Positions 631 to 58,362 of a stretch of 64,000 bases of DNA are shown here, piece by piece. Every line of letters starts with the position of its first letter. Position 1 is the first letter of the stretch. The notes beneath the pieces were generated by a model that was given only the letters and a program-made list of their open reading frames with translations, did no database searches and was not told where the DNA came from. The position numbers and the translations under genes were made by a program. The stretch lies in assembly GCF_002836595.1 (NCBI RefSeq), contig NZ_PJBB01000003.1, positions 1,177,001 to 1,241,000 of the forward strand, in the 5' to 3' direction. The DNA comes from Tenacibaculum sp. Bg11-29 (GTDB taxonomy: Bacteria > Bacteroidota > Bacteroidia > Flavobacteriales > Flavobacteriaceae).

Positions 631-659
631 ATAAAAAACCCTCACATTTTGTGAGGGTT
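631..659 (-). terminator. Rho-independent terminator after arsM
   Basis: A perfect 10-bp stem (AACCCTCACA / TGTGAGGGTT, loop of 3) is followed on the minus strand by a T-rich run. It lies 25 bp past the arsM stop and closes the arsenosugar cluster. Confidence 0.85.
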
Positions 660-683
660 CATTATTTCTAGCTTTACTTATTC

Positions 684-1652
684 TTAGCAACATCCACCAC
701 CATCATAATGATAGGTAGATTCAGAAAAGAAAATATCATCTCTACCAAGCGCTTTTAAAGCAGCCGCAGTTTTATCACAAATAGCCAAAGGCTGATTTTT
801 TAACAAAGTATGCCCTTCACCATCATCAAAATAATCTTCATCACCATAATAAATAGCAGCTTTACCTGTAAATATACAAGGACCATCTGCCGGCATAGGA
901 TCTTTAATTGCTGCAACTTCAATTGATTCTATGTAAATCAATTCATCAGTAGGGTAATTCTTAGGGTCTAAAATCCTGTAAGGCTTTCTAGCTCTAATTT
1001 CTATAGTTCCGAAACCAGCATCAGTCAAAGCTTTTACATAATCAGCAATCGATAAACTTCCGCTTAAACACAAAGCACGTAAACGTTCGTCGTTACGTAA
1101 TTCATCATTCATTGGTTGTTCACAAGTAGGATCGCTCATTACTAATTTACCGTGAGGTTTTAAGACGCGATACATCTCAGCAATTGCTTTCTTTAAATCA
1201 TCAGATTTAAAAATATTAAATAAACAGTTTTGAGCGGCTACATCAATCGAGTTGTCTTCAACAGGCAACGCCATTGCATCACCTTTACGTAAATCAACAA
1301 AATCGCTTTTAAACCAATCATTTTGTTCTTCAGCAACTTTAAAGTTTTTGCGAGATGCTTCTAGCATTTCATCAACTACATCTAAACCTATTACACCACT
1401 TTTATTTCTGTTGAAATAAGCGAATTGTAATAATTCCATTCCACCACCAACACCTACGTATAACATTTTAGGATTGTTGGTTAAATCACGTGCATGTACT
1501 GTAGAACCACAACCGTAGTTCATTTCTTGCATGATTTTCGGAATTTTTAAACCTGGTAATTCCCAAATAGGATTCGTGGTACAACATAAGCCAACATCTG
1601 GTGTTAAAGCTGCTTCTTTGTATACGTTATGTGTAGTTTCTAAATAACTCAT
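684..1652 (-). CDS. arsM: Arsenosugar-type arsenite S-adenosylmethionine methyltransferase ArsM
   Basis: This enzyme methylates trivalent arsenic stepwise using S-adenosylmethionine, in the cytoplasm. A class I methyltransferase fold is visible: the glycine-rich SAM loop VGVGGGMELL near residues 66-75, an acidic strand end at GLDVVDEML, and motif KLVMSDPTCE near 170. Cysteines fit arsenic binding: Cys23-Cys24, Cys48, the Cys after SDPT, and a C-terminal Gly-Gly-Gly-Cys-Cys. At 322 aa it is shorter than the classical ~350-aa ArsM enzymes and matches the variant found with ArsS radical SAM proteins. It is the last gene of the cluster, 3 bp after the DoxX gene and just before a terminator. In the known pathway its product, dimethylarsenite, is the substrate of ArsS (encoded at 4489-5544). 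Family assignment is strong; substrate use is inferred from family and context. Confidence 0.9.
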   Translation of the reverse strand: MSYLETTHNVYKEAALTPDVGLCCTTNPIWELPGLKIPKIMQEMNYGCGSTVHARDLTNNPKMLYVGVGGGMELLQFAYFNRNKSGVIGLDVVDEMLEASRKNFKVAEEQNDWFKSDFVDLRKGDAMALPVEDNSIDVAAQNCLFNIFKSDDLKKAIAEMYRVLKPHGKLVMSDPTCEQPMNDELRNDERLRALCLSGSLSIADYVKALTDAGFGTIEIRARKPYRILDPKNYPTDELIYIESIEVAAIKDPMPADGPCIFTGKAAIYYGDEDYFDDGEGHTLLKNQPLAICDKTAAALKALGRDDIFFSESTYHYDGGGCC

Positions 1653-1655
1653 GTT

Positions 1656-2078
1656 TTACTTTTTTAATTTTCTACGGATTAGATTATCAATAGAATAAAT
1701 GTCTAAATTTCTTGGTAATAATAGTAATGGTATTAAAAGAGCTGTTCTGTACATTACATGCGATAAATCCCAGATAGGTTCTTTTAGTCCGTGCCCTATA
1801 GTAACAATAACTAAAACGGAAGCTAAAGCATATAATGCGTAATTTGTTTTTAAACCAATAATTAATAATAAACCTGCAATTAGTTCAATTAACGAAGTAT
1901 AATATGCTGTGATTAATAATAGAAAATCGGGTAATAAATCTGAATAACTACTTAGAAAAAAGTTTTTATATACGTTCTCTAACCCGAATTTAAATACTTT
2001 TCCAAATCCTTGAAAAAAGAATACAAACCCTAATAATAATCGCATTATTAATACAGCTACTTGTTGATTTTTTTGCAC
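1656..2078 (-). CDS. DoxX-like small integral membrane protein
   Basis: A 140-aa protein with four predicted transmembrane segments and the DoxX signature near the N-terminus (RLLLGFVFFFQGFGKVFKFG) followed by an ELIAGLLLIIG helix. DoxX-family proteins are inner-membrane proteins, some linked to quinone or thiol redox chemistry; none of that can be read here directly. The GTG start overlaps the stop codon of the purine-nucleoside phosphorylase gene by one base (TAGTG), and the gene ends 3 bp before arsM, so it is translationally coupled within the arsenosugar cluster. A role in redox handling or membrane passage of arsenicals is only a guess. Confidence 0.8.
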   Translation of the reverse strand: MQKNQQVAVLIMRLLLGFVFFFQGFGKVFKFGLENVYKNFFLSSYSDLLPDFLLLITAYYTSLIELIAGLLLIIGLKTNYALYALASVLVIVTIGHGLKEPIWDLSHVMYRTALLIPLLLLPRNLDIYSIDNLIRRKLKK

Positions 2079-2893
2079 TATAATTGTTTTATTAATTCTT
2101 TAAATAATATAATCATCTTGGGCTCTGCTTTTCCGGCGACAGCTATTATTTCGGCAATATCTACAGGATGTAAATTTTTTGGGTCACATTCATCTGTTAA
2201 TACAGAGATTGCAGCACACGATAAATTTAATTGTTTTGCAACGATAACTTCTGGTACCGTACTCATACCAACAGCATCAGCTTCTAATATTTGAAGCATT
2301 CTATATTCTGCTCTAGTTTCTAATTGCGGACCAACAACACTTGCATACATACCTTCATGTAACTGTATGTCGTTTTGTTGTGCTATATCTTTCAAAAAAG
2401 TATTTATTTTTTTAGAATAAGGTTCTAGCATGTCAGCAAATATATTTCCAAAGTCATTTGCTCCTTTAAAAGCTAAAGGCGAACCACCTTGTAAATTCAA
2501 ATGATCTTCAAGTAACATTAAATCTCCTTTTTTATAAGATAAATTAATTGCACCAGCAGCATTAGAAATTAATAGGGTAGAGATACCTAAATTATGCATG
2601 GTTCTAATTCCGTAAGTAACTTCCCAAAGGTTATACCCTTCATAAACATGAAAACGACCAGACATTACAATAACCTTTTTACCTGATAATGTTCCGTAAA
2701 TTAATTTCCCTGAATGAAACTCTACAGTTGCTTGTGGAAAATTAGGGATATCAGCATATGCTATTTCTTTTTCTATTTCAATCTCGTTAACCAATTTACC
2801 TAAGCCAGTTCCTAATACAATTCCTATTTGTGGATTTGTAATTCCGTTTGATTTAAGAAAATCTGTAGTTTCTTGTAATTGTTGTTTTTTCAT
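2078..2893 (-). CDS. Purine-nucleoside phosphorylase (PNP I, trimeric type)
   Basis: A full-length 271-aa member of the inosine/guanosine-type purine-nucleoside phosphorylases, which split a purine nucleoside with phosphate into base and ribose 1-phosphate. Visible motifs are the N-terminal GIVLGTGLGKLV phosphate loop, MSGRFHVYEGY, the LLISNAAGAIN segment, and the C-terminal VGMSTVPEV region, all in family order. It lies between a glycosyltransferase gene and DoxX in the arsenosugar cluster. ArsS makes a 5'-deoxy-5'-dimethylarsinoyl adenosine, so a phosphorylase that removes the adenine is the logical next step. That link is inferred from position; the enzyme could also serve ordinary purine salvage. 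Its upstream gap to the glycosyltransferase gene holds a large inverted repeat. Confidence 0.9.
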   Translation of the reverse strand: MKKQQLQETTDFLKSNGITNPQIGIVLGTGLGKLVNEIEIEKEIAYADIPNFPQATVEFHSGKLIYGTLSGKKVIVMSGRFHVYEGYNLWEVTYGIRTMHNLGISTLLISNAAGAINLSYKKGDLMLLEDHLNLQGGSPLAFKGANDFGNIFADMLEPYSKKINTFLKDIAQQNDIQLHEGMYASVVGPQLETRAEYRMLQILEADAVGMSTVPEVIVAKQLNLSCAAISVLTDECDPKNLHPVDIAEIIAVAGKAEPKMIILFKELIKQL

Positions 2894-2896
2894 TTT

Positions 2897-2956
2897 TGTC
2901 TGGTCGAGCGCAGTCGAGATCTATAGTATAACCTCTCGACTGCGCTCGAGAAGACA
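2897..2956. repeat. Dispersed repeat pair forming a large inverted repeat (copy A)
   Basis: Two 24-nt arms (2897-2920 and 2933-2956) are near-perfect reverse complements around a 12-nt loop and share the core GAGCGCAGTCGA. It fills the gap between the phosphorylase and glycosyltransferase genes. Related copies lie at 5554-5578 and 58237-58264. Confidence 0.85.
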
Positions 2957-2960
2957 TTTA

Positions 2961-3563
2961 TTATTTTAAAAATTGTTGAAATGCTGAATGGTTTTCAATG
3001 TCTTCAAATACGTCAACATCATTCAGTTCTTCTAACAAATGTACGGTTACTTTTTGTAAATTATTTAAGGTGTCTCTTCTTACAGTTGCCGTTCCCCATT
3101 CTTTATTTTTAAAAACAGCAGCGTGCATTTTTTTCATTCCCAGTAAATAATACCCACCATCTTCTGCGGGGCCAATCACAACATCGTTCGTGTTTAACTT
3201 CTCAAAAGCATTTTCAATAATTGCTGGAGTTAAATCATACAAATCACTACCAATAATTAGTACTTTGTCGTAGTTTTCATCAAAAGAATTTTGAAAAGCA
3301 TTTTGCATTCTAATACCTAAATCTTCTCCTTTTTGTTGGTGTTTTTGATAAATTTCTTTATTCCAGATATCATTATCTCGAATTTTCACTGAATAATATA
3401 CGGCTTTGTCACAACTTAAATTAGCAGTAATTTCTTTCGTTTTATCTAATAAAAACTTATAAATAGTTAAAGCAGTTTCATCTCCAACTGTTTTTGCTAA
3501 ACGAGTTTTAGCTTTCCCTAATTCAGGGTTCCTAGTGAAAACTAGTAGTAAGTTTTTACTCAT
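2961..3563 (-). CDS. TIGR04282 / DUF2064 glycosyltransferase of arsenosugar clusters
   Basis: A 200-aa GT-A-like protein. The N-terminus LLLVFTRNPELGKAKTRLA resembles the nucleotide-binding start of nucleotidyltransferases and small glycosyltransferases, the middle carries IIGSDLYDLTP (metal-binding Asp region), and GPAEDGGYYLLGM is the conserved DUF2064 motif. The family is repeatedly found with ArsM and ArsS and is named for arsenosugar biosynthesis. It overlaps the rhodanese gene upstream by 8 bp. In the pathway it would act after removal of adenine, either coupling the arsenoribose to an aglycone or activating it. The fold is as close to sugar-phosphate nucleotidyltransferases as to glycosyltransferases, so the exact reaction is open. 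Confidence 0.85.
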   Translation of the reverse strand: MSKNLLLVFTRNPELGKAKTRLAKTVGDETALTIYKFLLDKTKEITANLSCDKAVYYSVKIRDNDIWNKEIYQKHQQKGEDLGIRMQNAFQNSFDENYDKVLIIGSDLYDLTPAIIENAFEKLNTNDVVIGPAEDGGYYLLGMKKMHAAVFKNKEWGTATVRRDTLNNLQKVTVHLLEELNDVDVFEDIENHSAFQQFLK

Positions 3564-4050
3564 AAATTTTTTCTCCTTTTAAGAGCCATTTGCTCCATTC
3601 TTTATTAAAAGTATGTACTTTGTTAGTTGGGTTATTTTTACTGTTTACTACAGTATTGTTTTTATTCTTCCATTCAAAAATACCACCATATAAATTGTAA
3701 ACATTTGTGTATCCTGCCTTTTTAAGACCTTCAGCAACATCTTCTGAGCGAATACCTAAAGAACAGTATACTACTATTTTGCTGTTTTTATCACTAGGAA
3801 GAATTTTTATAGTTTTAGTAATGCTAAAATTATCGTAACCAACACAAATAGCATTTTGTAAATGACTTACTTTAAACTCCTTTTGCTCACGAGCATCTAA
3901 TAAAATAACATTAGCAGTAATTTTTTGCAAGCTATCAACAAAAATATAAGGAATCGTTTCTGTATTATGTTTCTTTAATAATTGTTTTAAATTCTTTTGT
4001 GAGAAAGAGTTTAAAGAAATCAGTAAAAAAAAGAAAATAAACTTATTCAT
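3556..4050 (-). CDS. Exported rhodanese-like domain protein
   Basis: A 164-aa protein with a signal peptide (residues 1-18, ending SFSQ) and one rhodanese domain. The domain shows the CH2A motif LDAREQKEF at residues 51-59 and the active-site loop starting at Cys96 (CSLGIRS), followed by GYTNVYNLYGGIFEW, a classical C-terminal rhodanese motif. The catalytic cysteine is intact, so sulfur or thiol transfer, or possibly arsenic-species handling, is possible in the periplasm. It lies between the unknown 141-aa gene (4 bp gap) and the glycosyltransferase gene (8-bp overlap), which ties it to the arsenosugar operon. Its natural substrate cannot be read from sequence. Confidence 0.85.
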   Translation of the reverse strand: MNKFIFFFLLISLNSFSQKNLKQLLKKHNTETIPYIFVDSLQKITANVILLDAREQKEFKVSHLQNAICVGYDNFSITKTIKILPSDKNSKIVVYCSLGIRSEDVAEGLKKAGYTNVYNLYGGIFEWKNKNNTVVNSKNNPTNKVHTFNKEWSKWLLKGEKIYE

Positions 4051-4054
4051 TAGG

Positions 4055-4480
4055 TTATATTAAGTTTTTATTAAACTCAATATTATAATCTTCAAAAGCT
4101 ATATTGTTTTTACATCCATCTATTAAGCAAAATGTTATATGTGAAATATGTTCAGTCCAATTTTCAAGTTGTTTAATTTGTTCAGATGTTATTAAACTAT
4201 TAATTTGTAAGATTCCTTCTGAATTAATAGCCCATGTTTTAGTTAAATGGCAAATTCCCCATATAGATGATATAATATCTTTTCTGATATTATTATGAGA
4301 GAATTCATCGGAAAGGACATGCAATGCATTTACTATTTTATGAAAGTTATCTTCAGATAACTTAGTATTAAAAGGACGTAACATACCAATGAATCCATTT
4401 TCCCATTTTGGATTTTCAATATCTAAGTGCGCTCCACTTTGAAATAATAATTCTTCTATTGCTGCTTGTTCGTGATTCAT
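4055..4480 (-). CDS. Unknown 141-aa cytoplasmic protein in the arsenosugar cluster
   Basis: I do not recognise this protein. The ATG at 4480 is preferred because it starts 8 bp after the arsS stop; an in-frame upstream ATG at 4510 would overlap the arsS coding end and adds ten residues unlike the rest. It has no signal peptide or membrane segment and looks mainly alpha-helical. It contains Trp-rich short motifs (NPKWENGF, SSIWGICH, LENWTEH) and three cysteines spread through the chain. It sits between arsS and the exported rhodanese with tiny gaps, so it is very likely co-transcribed. Confidence 0.75.
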   Translation of the reverse strand: MNHEQAAIEELLFQSGAHLDIENPKWENGFIGMLRPFNTKLSEDNFHKIVNALHVLSDEFSHNNIRKDIISSIWGICHLTKTWAINSEGILQINSLITSEQIKQLENWTEHISHITFCLIDGCKNNIAFEDYNIEFNKNLI

Positions 4481-4488
4481 ATGAGAAG

Positions 4489-5544
4489 TTAAGCGACAAC
4501 ACCTTGGCAACTACTACCGGCACCAGCAGTACAACCATAGCAGTGTTGATTTATAATAATATTTCTGTTTTGTAATAACTCTTCATTGTATTCAGAGATA
4601 TGTGTAGCTTTACTAGCAACTTTTAAATTTAACATTTGGTTAAAATCGCAATCGTATAAATTACCATCCCAACTTACTGAAAGGGTATTTGTACACATTA
4701 CACTTGCTACTGCTGTAGGGTTGTAAGCTTCAACTAAAGCATACATATAATCTTCGTAATTTTCTGAAGCAATTAAATAATCTAAAAAACGACTAATTGG
4801 CAAATTTGTTATTGCAAACAAATTATGAAAAGCGATGTTAAAATCATCTTTCAAAGCTTTTTTAAAATCATTTTCTAAAGCCATTTGATCTCCTGGTAAA
4901 AATGCTCCTGAAGGATTGTAAACCAAATCTAATTTTAAGTCAGAACCTTCAACACCATAACCTACTTCGTTTAGCATTTGTAATGCTTTAATAGATTTAT
5001 CAAAAACACCATCACCACGTTGTTTATCAGTCTTCCCTTTAGTCCAATGTGGCATTGAAGAAACTACATGAACATTGTGTTTCTTGAAAAATTCTGGTAA
5101 ATCGTAATACTTTTTATTTGCTCGTATAATTGTTAAGTTAGAACGAACAATAAAATCTTTAACACCAGCTTTAGAAGCTTCTTCAACAAACCATCTAAAA
5201 TTAGGATTCATTTCAGGTGCGCCACCAGTTAAATCTAACGTATGTGCGCCAGTTTTTCCAATAACATCTAAACACTGCTGCATGGTTTCAACTGTCATAA
5301 TCTCTTTACGATCAGGTCCGGCATCAACATGGCAGTGCGCGCAAACTTGGTTACACATATAGCCTAAGTTAATTTGTAAAATTTCTAACTTCTTCGGACG
5401 TAAAGGAAATTGATTTGTTTCCTTTATTTTTTTTGCAAATGTAGGTAGTTCCCCATCAGCAAAAATTCCGTTAGATAAAATTTCTAATTGACGTTGTGTA
5501 TTTGCTAAGTCGTTATTTCTTGCTAAAAGCGATTTTTTCATCAT
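4489..5544 (-). CDS. arsS: Arsenosugar biosynthesis radical SAM protein ArsS
   Basis: A 351-aa radical SAM enzyme. The [4Fe-4S] cluster motif is Cys64-x3-Cys68-x2-Cys71 (CNQVCAHC), followed by DLTGGAPEMNP, the GGE-like SAM-contact motif of the family. The C-terminal half is DUF3641, with further cysteines near residues 283 and 298 and a final CYGCTAGAGSSC motif (Cys335, Cys338, Cys346) characteristic of ArsS. Some relatives carry selenocysteine in this family; here all codons are Cys. The known reaction joins a 5'-deoxyadenosyl group from SAM to dimethylarsenite, giving the arsenic-carbon bond of arsenosugars. It is preceded by a 138-bp gap with a repeat and hairpin, and followed closely by five tightly packed genes ending in arsM. 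Confidence 0.93.
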   Translation of the reverse strand: MMKKSLLARNNDLANTQRQLEILSNGIFADGELPTFAKKIKETNQFPLRPKKLEILQINLGYMCNQVCAHCHVDAGPDRKEIMTVETMQQCLDVIGKTGAHTLDLTGGAPEMNPNFRWFVEEASKAGVKDFIVRSNLTIIRANKKYYDLPEFFKKHNVHVVSSMPHWTKGKTDKQRGDGVFDKSIKALQMLNEVGYGVEGSDLKLDLVYNPSGAFLPGDQMALENDFKKALKDDFNIAFHNLFAITNLPISRFLDYLIASENYEDYMYALVEAYNPTAVASVMCTNTLSVSWDGNLYDCDFNQMLNLKVASKATHISEYNEELLQNRNIIINQHCYGCTAGAGSSCQGVVA

Positions 5545-5553
5545 CTAAACTTC

Positions 5554-5578
5554 TGTCTGGTTGAGCGTAGTCGAAACC
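5554..5578. repeat. Dispersed repeat, single arm (copy B)
   Basis: A 25-bp stretch matches the left arm of copy A with a few changes (core TTGAGCGTAGTCGAA). A decayed second arm may be the GCTGCGCT at about 5599-5606. It lies between the peroxidase-like gene and arsS. Confidence 0.75.
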
Positions 5579-5649
5579 TTATTAATAACCGTTCCTAAGC
5601 TGCGCTTTAATTTTCAATAATATCTCATTAAATATTATTGAAGTTCTAA

Positions 5650-5674
5650 GAGTTTCTAATAAAACTAGAAACTC
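5650..5674 (-). promoter_or_regulatory. Intra-operon hairpin
   Basis: A perfect 9-bp stem (GAGTTTCTA / TAGAAACTC) with a 7-nt loop lies 8 bp past the peroxidase-like gene. It lacks a good T-run, so it may be an mRNA-stabilising or attenuating hairpin rather than a full terminator. Confidence 0.5.
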
Positions 5675-5682
5675 ATTATTTA

Positions 5683-6018
5683 TTACATTTCAAGTTTATT
5701 CACTTTGTTCATCATTTGAACTCCATGAACTAAAGTTGCTCCACTCTTTATAGCGGCACCAACATGAAGCGCTTCCATCATTTCTTCTTTCGTAATTCCA
5801 CGTTCTAAACCATCCTTTGTATAGGCATCTATACAATAAGGGCATTGTTCAGTATGGGCAACGGCTAAGGCAATTAAGCTTTTTTCACGAGCAGTTAATG
5901 CGCCTTCTTCAAATACTTTTCCGTAATAATCAAAGAACTTGTTTCCAAGTTCTTCATTCCATTCTGTTATTTTTCCGAATTTACGTAAGTCGGCAGGGTC
6001 GTAGTATGTTTTTGACAT
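5683..6018 (-). CDS. Arsenosugar-associated peroxidase-like (AhpD/CMD family) protein
   Basis: A 111-aa carboxymuconolactone-decarboxylase/AhpD-fold protein. The redox motif is Cys59-Pro-Tyr-Cys62 inside HTEQCPYCIDAYTKDG, followed by the usual EEMMEALHVGAAIKSGATLVHG helix. AhpD relatives use such a CxxC pair for thiol-dependent peroxide reduction; the histidine normally found four residues after the second Cys is replaced by Tyr66 here. A named subfamily of these proteins co-occurs with ArsM/ArsS, so arsenic redox (for example keeping the arsenical trivalent) is a reasonable inference. It is 63 bp downstream of the DUF547 gene and 138 bp upstream of arsS. Confidence 0.85.
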   Translation of the reverse strand: MSKTYYDPADLRKFGKITEWNEELGNKFFDYYGKVFEEGALTAREKSLIALAVAHTEQCPYCIDAYTKDGLERGITKEEMMEALHVGAAIKSGATLVHGVQMMNKVNKLEM

Positions 6019-6081
6019 GTATTCTTTTTAAGTTAAAAAGTAAAAGTACAAATTGTTTTAAAAATTATTAGAGCAATACGG

Positions 6082-6789
6082 CTATTTACCGTTTAAACTC
6101 CAATCGTATTTTAAAAAACTGATTTTTGCTTTTTCATCTATTTTGGTAGCTGAGTACTTATTAAGAAAGTTTATTAATGAACCTTTTTTAGTAAAATCTC
6201 CTTTAAACCATTTAAAAATCTTTGAAAGTTCTAATTTGTTTTCTGATATTTTATTTCTCTTAGGATCGTTAATAAATTTCTTAATTAGCATATCTGTTTT
6301 GCGTTCGTAATTAGCTTCTGTAAAAGCAAAGTTTCCTAGTTGAGGGCAAGAACCTGAAGCACAGTTTACACCAACATGAATTTTAGGGTCATTAAAATAT
6401 TTACGTAAAATTTTATGCTCTATATGGTTTAGTGTATGTGTTTTACCTCCAATTTTTGCAAATGGAATGTTCCAAGCATCTTTTCCTTTTTGTTTGATTT
6501 TTAAAATGCTTTTAATAGGGTAGTTGTTTAGTATAATTTTTAAGGTATATGCATTATATGCATTCACCCAAAAAGCTTTCTTTTTTGTTGCAGACCAGTT
6601 TTTTTGAGGTTTAGTTTTGTTCAGGTAATCTAAGTAAGTGTTTAATTTACTTTCTTCTTTCTTTAAAGCTTTGTAGTTTACGTTGCCTTTAGCACTAACA
6701 TGAGTTTTTAATAAAGAATTTAAAACACTTGTTTGACCAAATGAGTTTAGAAAGAAGGTTAAACTAAATAATAATAATATGTTACGCAT
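6082..6789 (-). CDS. Exported DUF547 protein
   Basis: A 235-aa protein with an N-terminal signal peptide (ends SFGQ at residues 16-19) and a DUF547 domain, recognised from KKAFWVNAYNAYTLKIIL, the SILKIKQKGKDAWNIPF segment, HTLNHIEHKILR and the NCASGSCPQLG motif with two cysteines. DUF547 proteins are widespread and have no settled biochemical role; the fold has been compared with papain-like/transglutaminase proteins, and the conserved Cys and His here would fit. It is the first gene of the arsenosugar cluster in transcription order. Co-transcription is likely from orientation and the 63-bp gap to the next gene, but there may be an extra promoter between them. Confidence 0.8.
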   Translation of the reverse strand: MRNILLLFSLTFFLNSFGQTSVLNSLLKTHVSAKGNVNYKALKKEESKLNTYLDYLNKTKPQKNWSATKKKAFWVNAYNAYTLKIILNNYPIKSILKIKQKGKDAWNIPFAKIGGKTHTLNHIEHKILRKYFNDPKIHVGVNCASGSCPQLGNFAFTEANYERKTDMLIKKFINDPKRNKISENKLELSKIFKWFKGDFTKKGSLINFLNKYSATKIDEKAKISFLKYDWSLNGK

Positions 6790-7008
6790 AGTCTTTTGTT
6801 TTAATCTGATGGTTTAGACGTTAATTTAAGTAATGGATTACAAATAATGTTCCATTTTTTAAAAAGAAAGGCTATTTAATTTTGTAAAGGCATTAATTTA
6901 TTGCTTTTGTTATAGGTATAACTTGTAGATAGATAAAAATAAACAAGGTTAAGTTTATAGAAAAGGGAGCGTTTTAAAAGGAGGGAGAATAACAAATATT
7001 ATTTAAAA

Positions 7009-7041
7009 TAAAAAAACCTTAACAAATAAATGTTAAGGTTT
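7009..7041 (-). terminator. Terminator after the first tRNA-Leu
   Basis: The stem AACCTTAACA / TGTTAAGGTT (7016-7040) is followed on the minus strand by a T-run. It lies directly past the 3' end of the tRNA gene, closing the tRNA Gly-Leu-Leu transcript. Confidence 0.8.
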
Positions 7042-7043
7042 AG

Positions 7044-7127
7044 TACTGAAGGCGGGACTTGAACCCGCACGACCCAAGGGTCATTGGATTTTAAGTCCAA
7101 CGTGTCTACCAATTCCACCACTTCAGC
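7044..7127 (-). tRNA. tRNA-Leu (anticodon TAA), copy 1
   Basis: An 84-nt class II tRNA. The acceptor arm begins GCTGAAG and pairs with CTTCAGT, the D-arm has GGTAGACAC, the anticodon loop is CTTAAAA with anticodon TAA, a long variable arm follows, and the T-arm has GGTTCAAGTCC. CCA is not encoded. It differs from copy 2 by one compensated pair in the variable arm. Confidence 0.95.
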
Positions 7128-7162
7128 TGGTATATGTATATGTTTTTTGACTGCTTTCTTAA

Positions 7163-7192
7163 AATAAACCTCGCTAATTAAAACGAGGTTTA
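7163..7192 (-). terminator. Weak hairpin between the tRNA-Leu copies
   Basis: AAACCTCG / CGAGGTTT with a 10-nt loop lies just past tRNA-Leu copy 2. The following T-run is short, so it may be a processing or weak termination site. Confidence 0.45.
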
Positions 7193-7193
7193 G

Positions 7194-7277
7194 TACTGAA
7201 GGCGGGACTTGAACCCGCACGGCCCAAGGGCCATTGGATTTTAAGTCCAACGTGTCTACCAATTCCACCACTTCAGC
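7194..7277 (-). tRNA. tRNA-Leu (anticodon TAA), copy 2
   Basis: An 84-nt class II tRNA nearly identical to copy 1, which lies 66 bp downstream. The variable arm has GGCC/GGCC where copy 1 has GACC/GGTC, a base-pair exchange that keeps the helix. Confidence 0.95.
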
Positions 7278-7329
7278 TTATATGATTGCAATGCAATCAA
7301 AAATTGGTGTATTTTTAAGAAAGTCTCAG

Positions 7330-7401
7330 AGCGAAAGACGGGATTTGAACCCGCGACCCCCACCTTGGCAAGGTGATGCTCTACCCCTGAGCTACTTTCG
7401 C
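7330..7401 (-). tRNA. tRNA-Gly (anticodon GCC)
   Basis: A 72-nt tRNA: acceptor GCGAAAG/CTTTCGC, D-loop AGCTCAGGGGTAGAGC, anticodon stem-loop ACCTTGCCAAGGT giving anticodon GCC, T-arm GGGTTCAAATCCC. CCA is not encoded. It is the first of three tandem tRNA genes on this strand. Confidence 0.95.
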
Positions 7402-7524
7402 GTAGTCAAAAATTATTTTAAAGAACGTTGCATTGTCTGCAATGCGGGTGCAAATATAACACCTTTTTTTAAACTACAAAATAGTTTTTGGTTTTTTTTC
7501 TGTTTCAATTACTATTATTTTTTA

Positions 7525-7554
7525 TTGTCATTAGGTAAGAAAGAAATACCTTTG
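7525..7554 (+). promoter_or_regulatory. Bacteroidota-type promoter of the haem O synthase operon
   Basis: TTG at 7525-7527, a 19-bp spacer and TACCTTTG at 7547-7554 match the TTTG / TAnnTTTG consensus of the primary sigma factor of Bacteroidota. The start point would be near 7560. Confidence 0.7.
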
Positions 7555-7620
7555 CAGAAATTTTTAAATTTCGAAGTGGATTCTATTACACCTATACATA
7601 TTAAAACCTCTTTAAAATCA

Positions 7621-8478
7621 ATGTTTAATGATTTTAAACAACTAACAAAGGTAGGCTTATCTATTAGTGTTGTTTTTACATCTATTACAGGGTATTTATT
7701 AGGAGCCGAAACAATTGATTATACAATAGTTTTATTGTTAGCGATTGGAGGTTACTTAATGGTAGGAGCATCAAATGCTTTTAATCAAGTTATAGAAAAG
7801 GATATTGACAGCTTAATGCAACGTACTAAAAACCGTCCTTTACCAGCTGGTAGAATGACAGTAACGACAGCATTAATAATTGCAATTGTTTTTACGATTG
7901 TAGGTATTGGTATTTTATATTCAATAAACCCGAAATGTGCTTTATTTGGTGCAATTTCTATTTTTTTATACACAAGTGCTTATACTCCTTTAAAGGCAGT
8001 AACACCTTTAGCTGTTTTCGTAGGCGCAATTCCTGGTGCAATTCCTTTTATGTTAGGATGGGTTGCTGCAACTGGTGAATTTGGTATTGAAGCAGGTTTT
8101 TTATTCTTAATACAGTTTTTCTGGCAATTCCCACATTTTTGGGCAATTGGTTGGCTACAATTTGAAGAGTATAACAAAGCAGGGTTACATATGCTACCTA
8201 TGGATAAAAAAGATAAAGGAGCTATAGTACAAATAATTTTTTATACCTGTATTATGATTTTAATGTCGGTAGCACCTGTATTAAAAGTAACAGGTAACTT
8301 ATATATATATCCTATAACAGCGGTAATAATTTTATTGTTAGGAATATTAATGTTGTATTACGCTTTTCAATTATATAAATCAGAAGAAAACACTGATGCA
8401 CGTAAATTAATGCTAGCGAGTGTTTTTTATATTACAATCGTACCCATAATTTATGTGGTAGATAAATTTTTACACTAA
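7621..8478 (+). CDS. ctaB: Haem O synthase (protohaem IX farnesyltransferase)
   Basis: This membrane prenyltransferase converts haem B to haem O for cytochrome oxidase. It shows about nine transmembrane helices, the substrate-binding motif NAFNQVIEKDIDSLMQRTKNRP with its Asp pair, and the second conserved loop YTSAYTPLKAVTPLAVFVGAIPGA as YTPLK...GAIPGAIP. The ATG at 7621 gives 285 aa. An in-frame GTG at 7576 would give about 300 aa, closer to the usual length, and is still downstream of the predicted transcription start, so it is a real alternative. The frame stays open far upstream, but that part runs antisense through tRNA genes and is not coding. It is the first gene of the oxidase cluster; its stop overlaps the next start (TAATG). 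Confidence 0.92.
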   Translation: MFNDFKQLTKVGLSISVVFTSITGYLLGAETIDYTIVLLLAIGGYLMVGASNAFNQVIEKDIDSLMQRTKNRPLPAGRMTVTTALIIAIVFTIVGIGILYSINPKCALFGAISIFLYTSAYTPLKAVTPLAVFVGAIPGAIPFMLGWVAATGEFGIEAGFLFLIQFFWQFPHFWAIGWLQFEEYNKAGLHMLPMDKKDKGAIVQIIFYTCIMILMSVAPVLKVTGNLYIYPITAVIILLLGILMLYYAFQLYKSEENTDARKLMLASVFYITIVPIIYVVDKFLH

Positions 8479-57861: not shown

Positions 57862-58362
57862 TTAAAACAATGTTTGTTGTTTACAGCCACTTTCATGTTC
57901 TAATAACCATTTTTTTCGCCATATTCCACCAGCATAACCTGTTAAAGAGCCATTTGAGCCTATAACTCGATGACATGGAATAATAATCCAAATTGGGTTT
58001 TTACCATTTGCAGAAGCAACAGCTCTAATTGCTTTCGGGTCGCCAATTTGTTTTGTTTGTTCTAAATAAGTGTTGCTTTTTCCGAAAGATATATTTAATA
58101 ATTCGTTCCAAACAGTTTGTTGAAAAACTGTTCCTTTCGGATTTAATTTTAAATCAAAAACAGTTCTTGTTCCTGCAAAATATTCTTCTAATTGAGTTAC
58201 ACAGTTTTGTAAACAAATTGGAATATTTTTAGTTTTTGTCATTTCGAGCGGAGTCGAGAAGTCATCATCTAAAACAGATACTGATTGAATTCCATTTTCA
58301 TTACCAACAATTTTGGCGGTTCCTATTGGAGTTTTATAATATGTGGTTTGTGTGTTAGACAC
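57862..58362 (-). CDS. Methylated-DNA-protein cysteine methyltransferase with a repeat-derived insert
   Basis: A 166-aa MGMT/Ogt repair protein that removes alkyl groups from O6-guanine. Active site Pro-Cys-His-Arg-Val in IIPCHRVIGSNGSLTGYAGG is intact. The GTG at 58362 is chosen: it overlaps tatD by 8 bp, while the ATG at 58401 would overlap by 47 bp. Residues ~34-42 (DFSTPLEMT) are encoded by a dispersed repeat (58237-58264), a segment between the N-terminal domain strands and IPICLQNCVTQLEEYFAG. The insertion preserves the frame and the catalytic domain, so activity is likely kept. Confidence 0.88.
   Translation of the reverse strand: MSNTQTTYYKTPIGTAKIVGNENGIQSVSVLDDDFSTPLEMTKTKNIPICLQNCVTQLEEYFAGTRTVFDLKLNPKGTVFQQTVWNELLNISFGKSNTYLEQTKQIGDPKAIRAVASANGKNPIWIIIPCHRVIGSNGSLTGYAGGIWRKKWLLEHESGCKQQTLF
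58237..58264. repeat. Dispersed repeat inside the MGMT gene (copy C)
   Basis: A 28-bp stretch with the core TTTCGAGCGGAGTCGAGAA shares TGTC-n(3-5)-TCGAGCG-n-AGTCGAGA with copy A. It is translated in frame on the minus strand. Confidence 0.8.

Follow-up and report, generated by a model that had tools for sequence, protein, structure and literature searches.

A purine nucleoside phosphorylase gene in a probable arsenosugar-type operon of Tenacibaculum sp. Bg11-29, a candidate for the adenine-removal step

In a 64,000-nucleotide stretch of the genome of Tenacibaculum sp. Bg11-29 (contig NZ_PJBB01000003.1, positions 1,177,001 to 1,241,000; hereafter the window), nine open reading frames (ORFs) between positions 684 and 6789 probably form an arsenosugar-type locus, defined by the arsenite methyltransferase ArsM and the radical S-adenosylmethionine (SAM) enzyme ArsS, with a product that is predicted from the genes of the operon. 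On balance we favour the explanation that this is a Flavobacteriaceae-type arsenosugar operon in which a purine nucleoside phosphorylase (PNP) would remove adenine and a protein of family TIGR04282 would activate the product. Strong comparative evidence from sequences indicates that the PNP concerned, here called type A (at least 53% identical to the window PNP), belongs with ArsS and ArsM in the Flavobacteriaceae. Four operon proteins, ArsM, ArsS, the TIGR04282 protein and the AhpD-like protein (TIGR04169), score above the NCBI cut-offs for arsenosugar families, and ArsS carries the radical SAM motif CX3CX2C (as CNQVCAHC) together with a DUF3641 domain (PF12345), so the original prediction that arsM and arsS define the locus was well founded.

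The clearest association was found in 150 genomes of a Flavobacterium-like genus centred on genome G084, with F. kayseriense (L288) as a named relative. ArsS, arsenosugar-type ArsM and type-A PNP (58-68% identity) occur there in an identical set of 11 genomes, whereas type A is present in none of the other 139, of which 95 encode only PNPs no more than 48% identical to that of the window and 44 have no match. Nine of the 11 ArsS-bearing genomes possess both PNP types, and the pairing with ArsS gave a Fisher p of 7e-17 for type A and of 0.50 for the other type, shared ancestry being ignored. TIGR04282 was found in all 11 and also in six genomes that lack ArsS. The ArsS proteins of the 11 form two groups, 79-85% and 63-64% identical to that of the window, and their PNPs form the same two (64-68% and 58-60%). 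G453 and G458 have the arrangement AhpD-ArsS-PNP-ArsM, with TIGR04282 at a distance of about 19 kb or much more remote, and the same arrangement is found in Fulvivirga imtechensis (Fulvivirgaceae), where the PNP gene is separated from one neighbour by 21 bp and overlaps the other by 4 bp. The listing of the phosphorylase as a pathway member in the original prediction agrees with its co-occurrence with ArsS and ArsM.

Across 149 Flavobacteriaceae genomes, type-A PNP is encoded in 120 of the 121 that bear ArsS, compared with 13 of the 28 that lack it, the single exception (G344) having a diverged partial PNP copy (43%, 172 amino acids) that adjoins arsS. Of the 121 genomes, 79 have the type-A gene no more than 5 kb from arsS and 95 no more than 15 kb; counting any PNP, including the partial copy of G344, these figures become 80 and 96. 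In G424, a second PNP copy of 51%, beside one of 53%, also adjoins arsS. Distances between proteins correlate with those of ArsS most closely for PNP (Mantel r 0.83, 45 linked loci), followed by TIGR04282 (0.67, 40 loci) and ArsM (0.47, 32 loci), in a set that includes L279, L283 and L290 and with values that, like the co-occurrence counts, are not corrected for species phylogeny.

The window PNP satisfies the curated trimeric-PNP model NF006054 and does not reach the cut-off of the methylthioadenosine phosphorylase (MTAP) model TIGR01694 (97 bits, cut-off 275). It is the sole NF006054 match in its genome, which also encodes a DeoD-type PNP; the operon enzyme is therefore not the only PNP of this organism. 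Active-site positions were assigned by eye, by alignment with human PNP and MTAP motifs checked in PDB. At the position of human His257, a residue that we take to act at the 5' substituent, Ile or Val is found in all 54 type-A rows (among which L153 is the window itself, L154 repeats L077 and L169 repeats L063) and His in all seven other-type Flavobacteriaceae rows. This fits a 5' substituent other than hydroxyl, although it is suggestive only. A comparison of arsS-linked with unlinked type-A PNPs gave just two weakly distinguishing positions, 164 and 248.

In the proposed mechanism, ArsM would convert arsenite to dimethylarsenite and ArsS would add the 5'-deoxyadenosyl group to arsenic, both roles following from family membership and known from cyanobacterial enzymes; adenosylation by a radical SAM enzyme is described in PMC12159101. 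Type-A PNP, with phosphate, would then act on the arsenic-nucleoside to give adenine and 5-deoxy-5-dimethylarsinoyl-ribose-1-phosphate. More tentatively, TIGR04282 might act on that product, or on a C3 phosphate, to make a nucleotide-activated compound for attachment of a glycerol-type aglycone, and the AhpD-like CPYC protein would probably serve arsenic or thiol redox around ArsS. The complete course, a phosphorolytic, nucleotide-sugar-like route from arsenoribose-1-phosphate through nucleotide-activated arsenoribose to glycerol or lipid, is possible but doubtful. For an arsenolipid of algae, by contrast, an 'adenosyl nucleosidase' has been proposed (PMC10456119). No literature linking a nucleoside phosphorylase to arsenosugar synthesis was recognised from titles and the beginnings of abstracts, a weak negative as subscription literature lay mostly outside the search.

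Besides the missing correction for phylogeny, several observations weigh against the favoured explanation. Thirteen of the 28 ArsS-lacking Flavobacteriaceae genomes retain a type-A PNP, and in six of these (L183, L184, L189, L192, L193 and L194) a rhodanese-TIGR04282-PNP block stands with neither arsS nor arsM in the 6-14 kb of sequence examined, accompanied by DUF547 in four and by a weak AhpD-family match in one. Since the block is intact in these six, it possibly has another role, as a pathway of its own, or outlasts the arsenosugar pathway. The hydrophobic residue is not particular to type A, as Ile, Val or Leu occupies the 257 position in 28 of 30 other Bacteroidota PNPs, and Asp at the position of human Asn243, first considered diagnostic of adenine-specific PNPs linked to ars genes, was ruled out, all 91 PNP rows carrying it. 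Linkage of PNP to arsS is rare outside the Flavobacteriaceae, and as a rule for the whole of the Bacteroidota it was likewise rejected on the first sample (11 of 14 Flavobacteriaceae loci against none of 67 others). In the phylum sample, the three PNPs from outside the family that come closest to type A (G146, G186 and G049) belong to genomes without ArsS above cut-off. Finally, a candidate for the last transfer is wanting, because TIGR04283 stays below cut-off throughout the window's genome (none of 13 matches reaches 182 bits; best 60.5). As a separate observation, type-A-like PNP genes form tandem pairs in G186 (C1:654543-656164) and G049 (C11:532387-534025), two genomes that belong to the same class and have no ArsS above cut-off.

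A phylogenetic tree of 75 rows was used to place these genes; it took every third of the 30 phylum-wide PNPs and excluded 30 family rows (L153-L182), the truncated L278, and L068, L075 and L089, which are duplicated by the genus set. Eight of the 13 ArsS-lacking type-A genes cluster with a single linked gene, that of Robertkochia, and the remaining five are dispersed among linked genes; the grouping of the eight fits the pattern expected from loss of arsS. In a second set of loci, the best 80 matches of a scan of named contigs, a PNP-family gene is present in 26, five of them with record titles from outside the Flavobacteriales: L225 (Fulvivirga), L240 (Cyclobacteriaceae), L279 (Chitinophagaceae), L283 (Chitinophagales) and L290 (Planctomycetota). 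A further record, L223, carries only Bacteroidia in its title; in the tree it clusters with two from the Flavobacteriales. The PNP of L290 does not belong to type A, as the tree places it with other Bacteroidota PNPs; about 1 kb and a small gene lie between it and arsS, a proximity that may be due to chance.

Four other explanations of the PNP were weighed. It might be a by-product or salvage enzyme, removing the 5'-deoxyadenosine that uncoupled turnover of ArsS yields, or adenosine from the S-adenosylhomocysteine of ArsM, and not act on the arsenic-nucleoside. The hydrophobic residue at the 5' position would suit 5'-deoxyadenosine or methylthioadenosine, the same PNP type persists in the 13 ArsS-lacking genomes, and radical SAM enzymes are inhibited by 5'-deoxyadenosine according to PMC8102628. 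We nevertheless hold this to be rather unlikely, as a general salvage enzyme should not follow ArsS and the pairing with ArsS and ArsM is exact in the G084 genus, an argument qualified by the phylum sample, where 11 of 14 ArsS-lacking genomes of this genus contain other radical SAM proteins that match the ArsS model more weakly. It is unlikely, in our view, that rhodanese, TIGR04282, PNP and DUF547 form an independent pathway (making, for example, activated ribose or 5-deoxyribose from nucleosides) which the ars genes have merely entered or come to adjoin. The six blocks without arsS or arsM nearby, four with DUF547, and the six ArsS-lacking genomes of the G084 genus that encode TIGR04282 speak for such a pathway; yet none of the 139 ArsS-lacking genomes of that genus has the type-A PNP, the gene lies between arsS and arsM with TIGR04282 not adjoining in G453, G458 and Fulvivirga, and in the tree the type-A genes of ArsS-lacking genomes lie nested within those linked to arsS, consistent with loss of arsS.

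A role in arsenate reduction, in which nucleoside arsenolysis would yield ribose-1-arsenate to be reduced by thiols to arsenite for ArsM, appears very unlikely. Mammalian PNP reduces arsenate in vitro (PMC12608789) and a dithiol AhpD-like protein is encoded in the same operon, but the same source does not regard the occurrence in vivo as established, and other PNPs, here the DeoD-type enzyme, might do likewise, which leaves unexplained why only type A tracks ArsS. That the PNP is an ordinary housekeeping enzyme, placed in the operon fortuitously, seems scarcely credible: it does pass the general model NF006054, as the sole such match in its genome, but a DeoD-type PNP is also present there, and in the G084 genus nine of 11 ArsS-bearing genomes hold both types, with type A only where ArsS is.

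The core of the locus is by itself of a known kind. ArsS above cut-off was found in 121 of 296 Bacteroidota genomes and, in a separate count, in 121 of the 149 Flavobacteriaceae genomes, so that arsS with AhpD and TIGR04282 is an already named and established kind of locus, of which PNP marks the Flavobacteriaceae variant; the notion that it would be unusual in a marine flavobacterium does not hold. The closest other ArsS to that of the window is from T. ovolyticum (98%), and a plasmid collection gave no near match that would indicate a plasmid origin. We compared 81 ArsS loci, namely the window and one region of 4.9-19.9 kb from each of 80 further genomes, out of the 120 besides the window's that have ArsS above cut-off, picked for spread and not randomly (few of the many f17, Chlorobi-like, ones were taken). 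An AhpD-like gene occurs in 70 of them, mostly directly upstream of arsS, TIGR04282 in 45, ArsM in 17, DUF547 in 16, PNP and rhodanese in 11 each, DoxX in two (the window and one congener) and the 141-amino-acid gene in one, a few of these neighbour matches being on the opposite strand or several kb off. A family 2 glycosyltransferase (GT2) gene resembling TIGR04283, assigned from sequence, is a neighbour in 37 loci. The AhpD-ArsS pair, with or without TIGR04282, is seen in many other genomes, and together with the curated family matches this wide recurrence sets the locus beyond chance. Other Flavobacteriaceae also show the order AhpD-ArsS-(rhodanese)-TIGR04282-PNP-ArsM. The nine genes do not, however, travel as the single unit first supposed, given the scarcity of DoxX and of the 141-amino-acid gene and the six rhodanese-TIGR04282-PNP blocks lacking arsS and arsM nearby.

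The TIGR04282 protein was initially called a glycosyltransferase. Its structure model (predicted local distance difference test, pLDDT, 94.3) is nearest to the solved fold 3cgx, then to 7p97, 2i5e and 6bwh. It matches solved nucleotidyltransferases better than glycosyltransferases, and because the characterised nearest folds are nucleotidyltransferases we doubt the former label and regard a nucleotidyltransferase-like protein as probable from the model. Second TIGR04282-like genes, of 224-255 codons, lie less than 6 kb from arsS in five Flavobacteriaceae loci (L063, L066, L068, L073 and L075), and such copies in the genus set align to no more than part of the family model and score below cut-off.

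Among the remaining genes, DoxX and the 141-amino-acid gene are, as judged from their distribution, lineage-specific local additions: DoxX is confined to the window's genus among the loci examined, with none in the 80 named loci, and the 141-amino-acid protein has three homologues in the protein collection, all of source 'lgn' and on contigs of at most 3.5 kb. As these homologues measure 138-141 amino acids, its gene most likely starts at ATG 4480 and does not overlap arsS; its structure model (pLDDT 51.5) is too poor for a fold comparison. A PADLOC scan gave no match for DoxX, DUF547 or the 141-amino-acid protein. The rhodanese and DUF547 proteins look exported, a prediction from their N-termini.

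The genes follow one another in the order DUF547, AhpD-like, arsS, 141-amino-acid gene, rhodanese, TIGR04282, PNP, DoxX and arsM (Table 1); inspection of the ORFs of the window recovered all nine frames, on the minus strand and at the positions first proposed. Their junctions had been described as a few base pairs apart from two larger gaps. At the small ones the genes are indeed 3-8 bp apart or overlap, by 1 bp in one case and by 8 bp in another, but the gaps of at least 60 bp number three, of 63 bp (6019-6081), 138 bp (5545-5682) and 67 bp (2894-2960).

Table 1. Genes and intergenic elements of the arsenosugar-type operon in the window
Feature	Position	Strand	Evidence
DUF547 protein, 235 amino acids	6082..6789	-	Pfam PF04784 75 bits; signal-peptide-like N-terminus (by eye)
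AhpD-like CPYC protein, CMD family	5683..6018	-	TIGR04169 194 bits, cut-off 120; CMD by Pfam; 'arsenosugar biosynthesis-associated peroxidase-like'
Gap with two hairpins, AhpD-like gene / arsS, 138 bp	5545..5682	-	fold z -3.5
arsS, radical SAM	4489..5544	-	TIGR04167 439 bits, cut-off 300; PF04055 and PF12345
141-amino-acid protein	4055..4480	-	NCBIfam, Pfam, PADLOC: no match
Rhodanese-domain protein	3556..4050	-	NF045521 'rhoda_near_glyco' 210 bits, cut-off 145; signal-peptide-like start (by eye)
TIGR04282 protein (DUF2064, CofC-like)	2961..3563	-	TIGR04282 219 bits, cut-off 134
Perfect 16-bp inverted repeat TCGAGCGCAGTCGAGA, hairpin between PNP and TIGR04282 genes	2904..2949	.	
Type-A PNP	2078..2893	-	NF006054 326 bits, cut-off 218; PNP_UDP_1 by Pfam
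DoxX-family membrane protein, GTG start	1656..2078	-	PF07681 42 bits
arsM, arsenosugar-type arsenite methyltransferase	684..1652	-	NF038099 576 bits, cut-off 400
Intrinsic-terminator-like hairpin and U run, 3' of arsM	636..660	-	z -5.3

Outside the operon genes, the terminator scan of the minus strand gave a single site, after arsM, and two more sites lie inside the TIGR04282 and PNP genes; the strong hairpins in the gaps 2894-2960 and 5545-5682 are absent from its list for the operon strand. The hairpin between PNP and TIGR04282 (2890-2965) has a folding energy of -37.6 kcal/mol (z -7.8). Its repeat unit TCGAGCGCAGTCGAGA has four matches in the window against 0.05 expected, and is possibly a dispersed hairpin repeat; weaker single copies stand at 5561-5576, upstream of arsS, and at 58244-58259. 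The promoter motif that we take to be the Bacteroidota consensus gave seven matches in the 64 kb against 5.5 expected, and none on the operon strand is nearer than 7451-7480, upstream of transfer RNA (tRNA) genes. Three minus-strand tRNA genes (7044-7127, 7194-7277 and 7330-7401) precede the operon, the first two having the same length and the same score, as in tandem copies; ORF 6999-7271 and the early part of ORF 7234-8478 cross them and look spurious.

Arsenosugars are among the main arsenic compounds of marine food webs. As ArsS is encoded in 121 of 149 Flavobacteriaceae genomes, heterotrophic bacteria may contribute arsenosugars, besides algae and cyanobacteria. In the literature passages at hand, the steps through ArsS have assigned enzymes, and for adenine removal only the proposed algal nucleosidase is named; a PNP that co-occurs with ArsS and ArsM provides a named, expressible candidate for this step. 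A change of label for TIGR04282, from glycosyltransferase to probable nucleotidyltransferase, would alter the annotation of a widespread family.

In Synechocystis PCC 6803, ArsS and ArsM catalyse the initial steps of arsenosugar synthesis (PMC8552651), and the window possesses the same two defining enzymes, with the difference that its arsM and arsS stand in one operon with AhpD-like and TIGR04282 genes and, as in the Flavobacteriaceae, a dedicated PNP. ArsM group I unites cyanobacteria and Bacteroidetes according to PMC5552862. With the common Bacteroidota cluster AhpD-ArsS-TIGR04282-TIGR04283 the window shares the AhpD-like protein, ArsS and TIGR04282, but its genome has no TIGR04283 above cut-off, and PNP and ArsM are present; the 67 ArsS loci from outside the Flavobacteriaceae include no linked PNP and 32 with a GT2 gene taken, from its sequence, as TIGR04283. 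The TIGR04282 protein is 14-16% identical to the CofC/FbiD nucleotidyltransferases (7p97, Rv2983). The PNP resembles MTAP, in the alignment made by eye, by Asp at the base-binding position and a hydrophobic residue at the 5' position, and differs from it in falling under the PNP model and not under that of MTAP.

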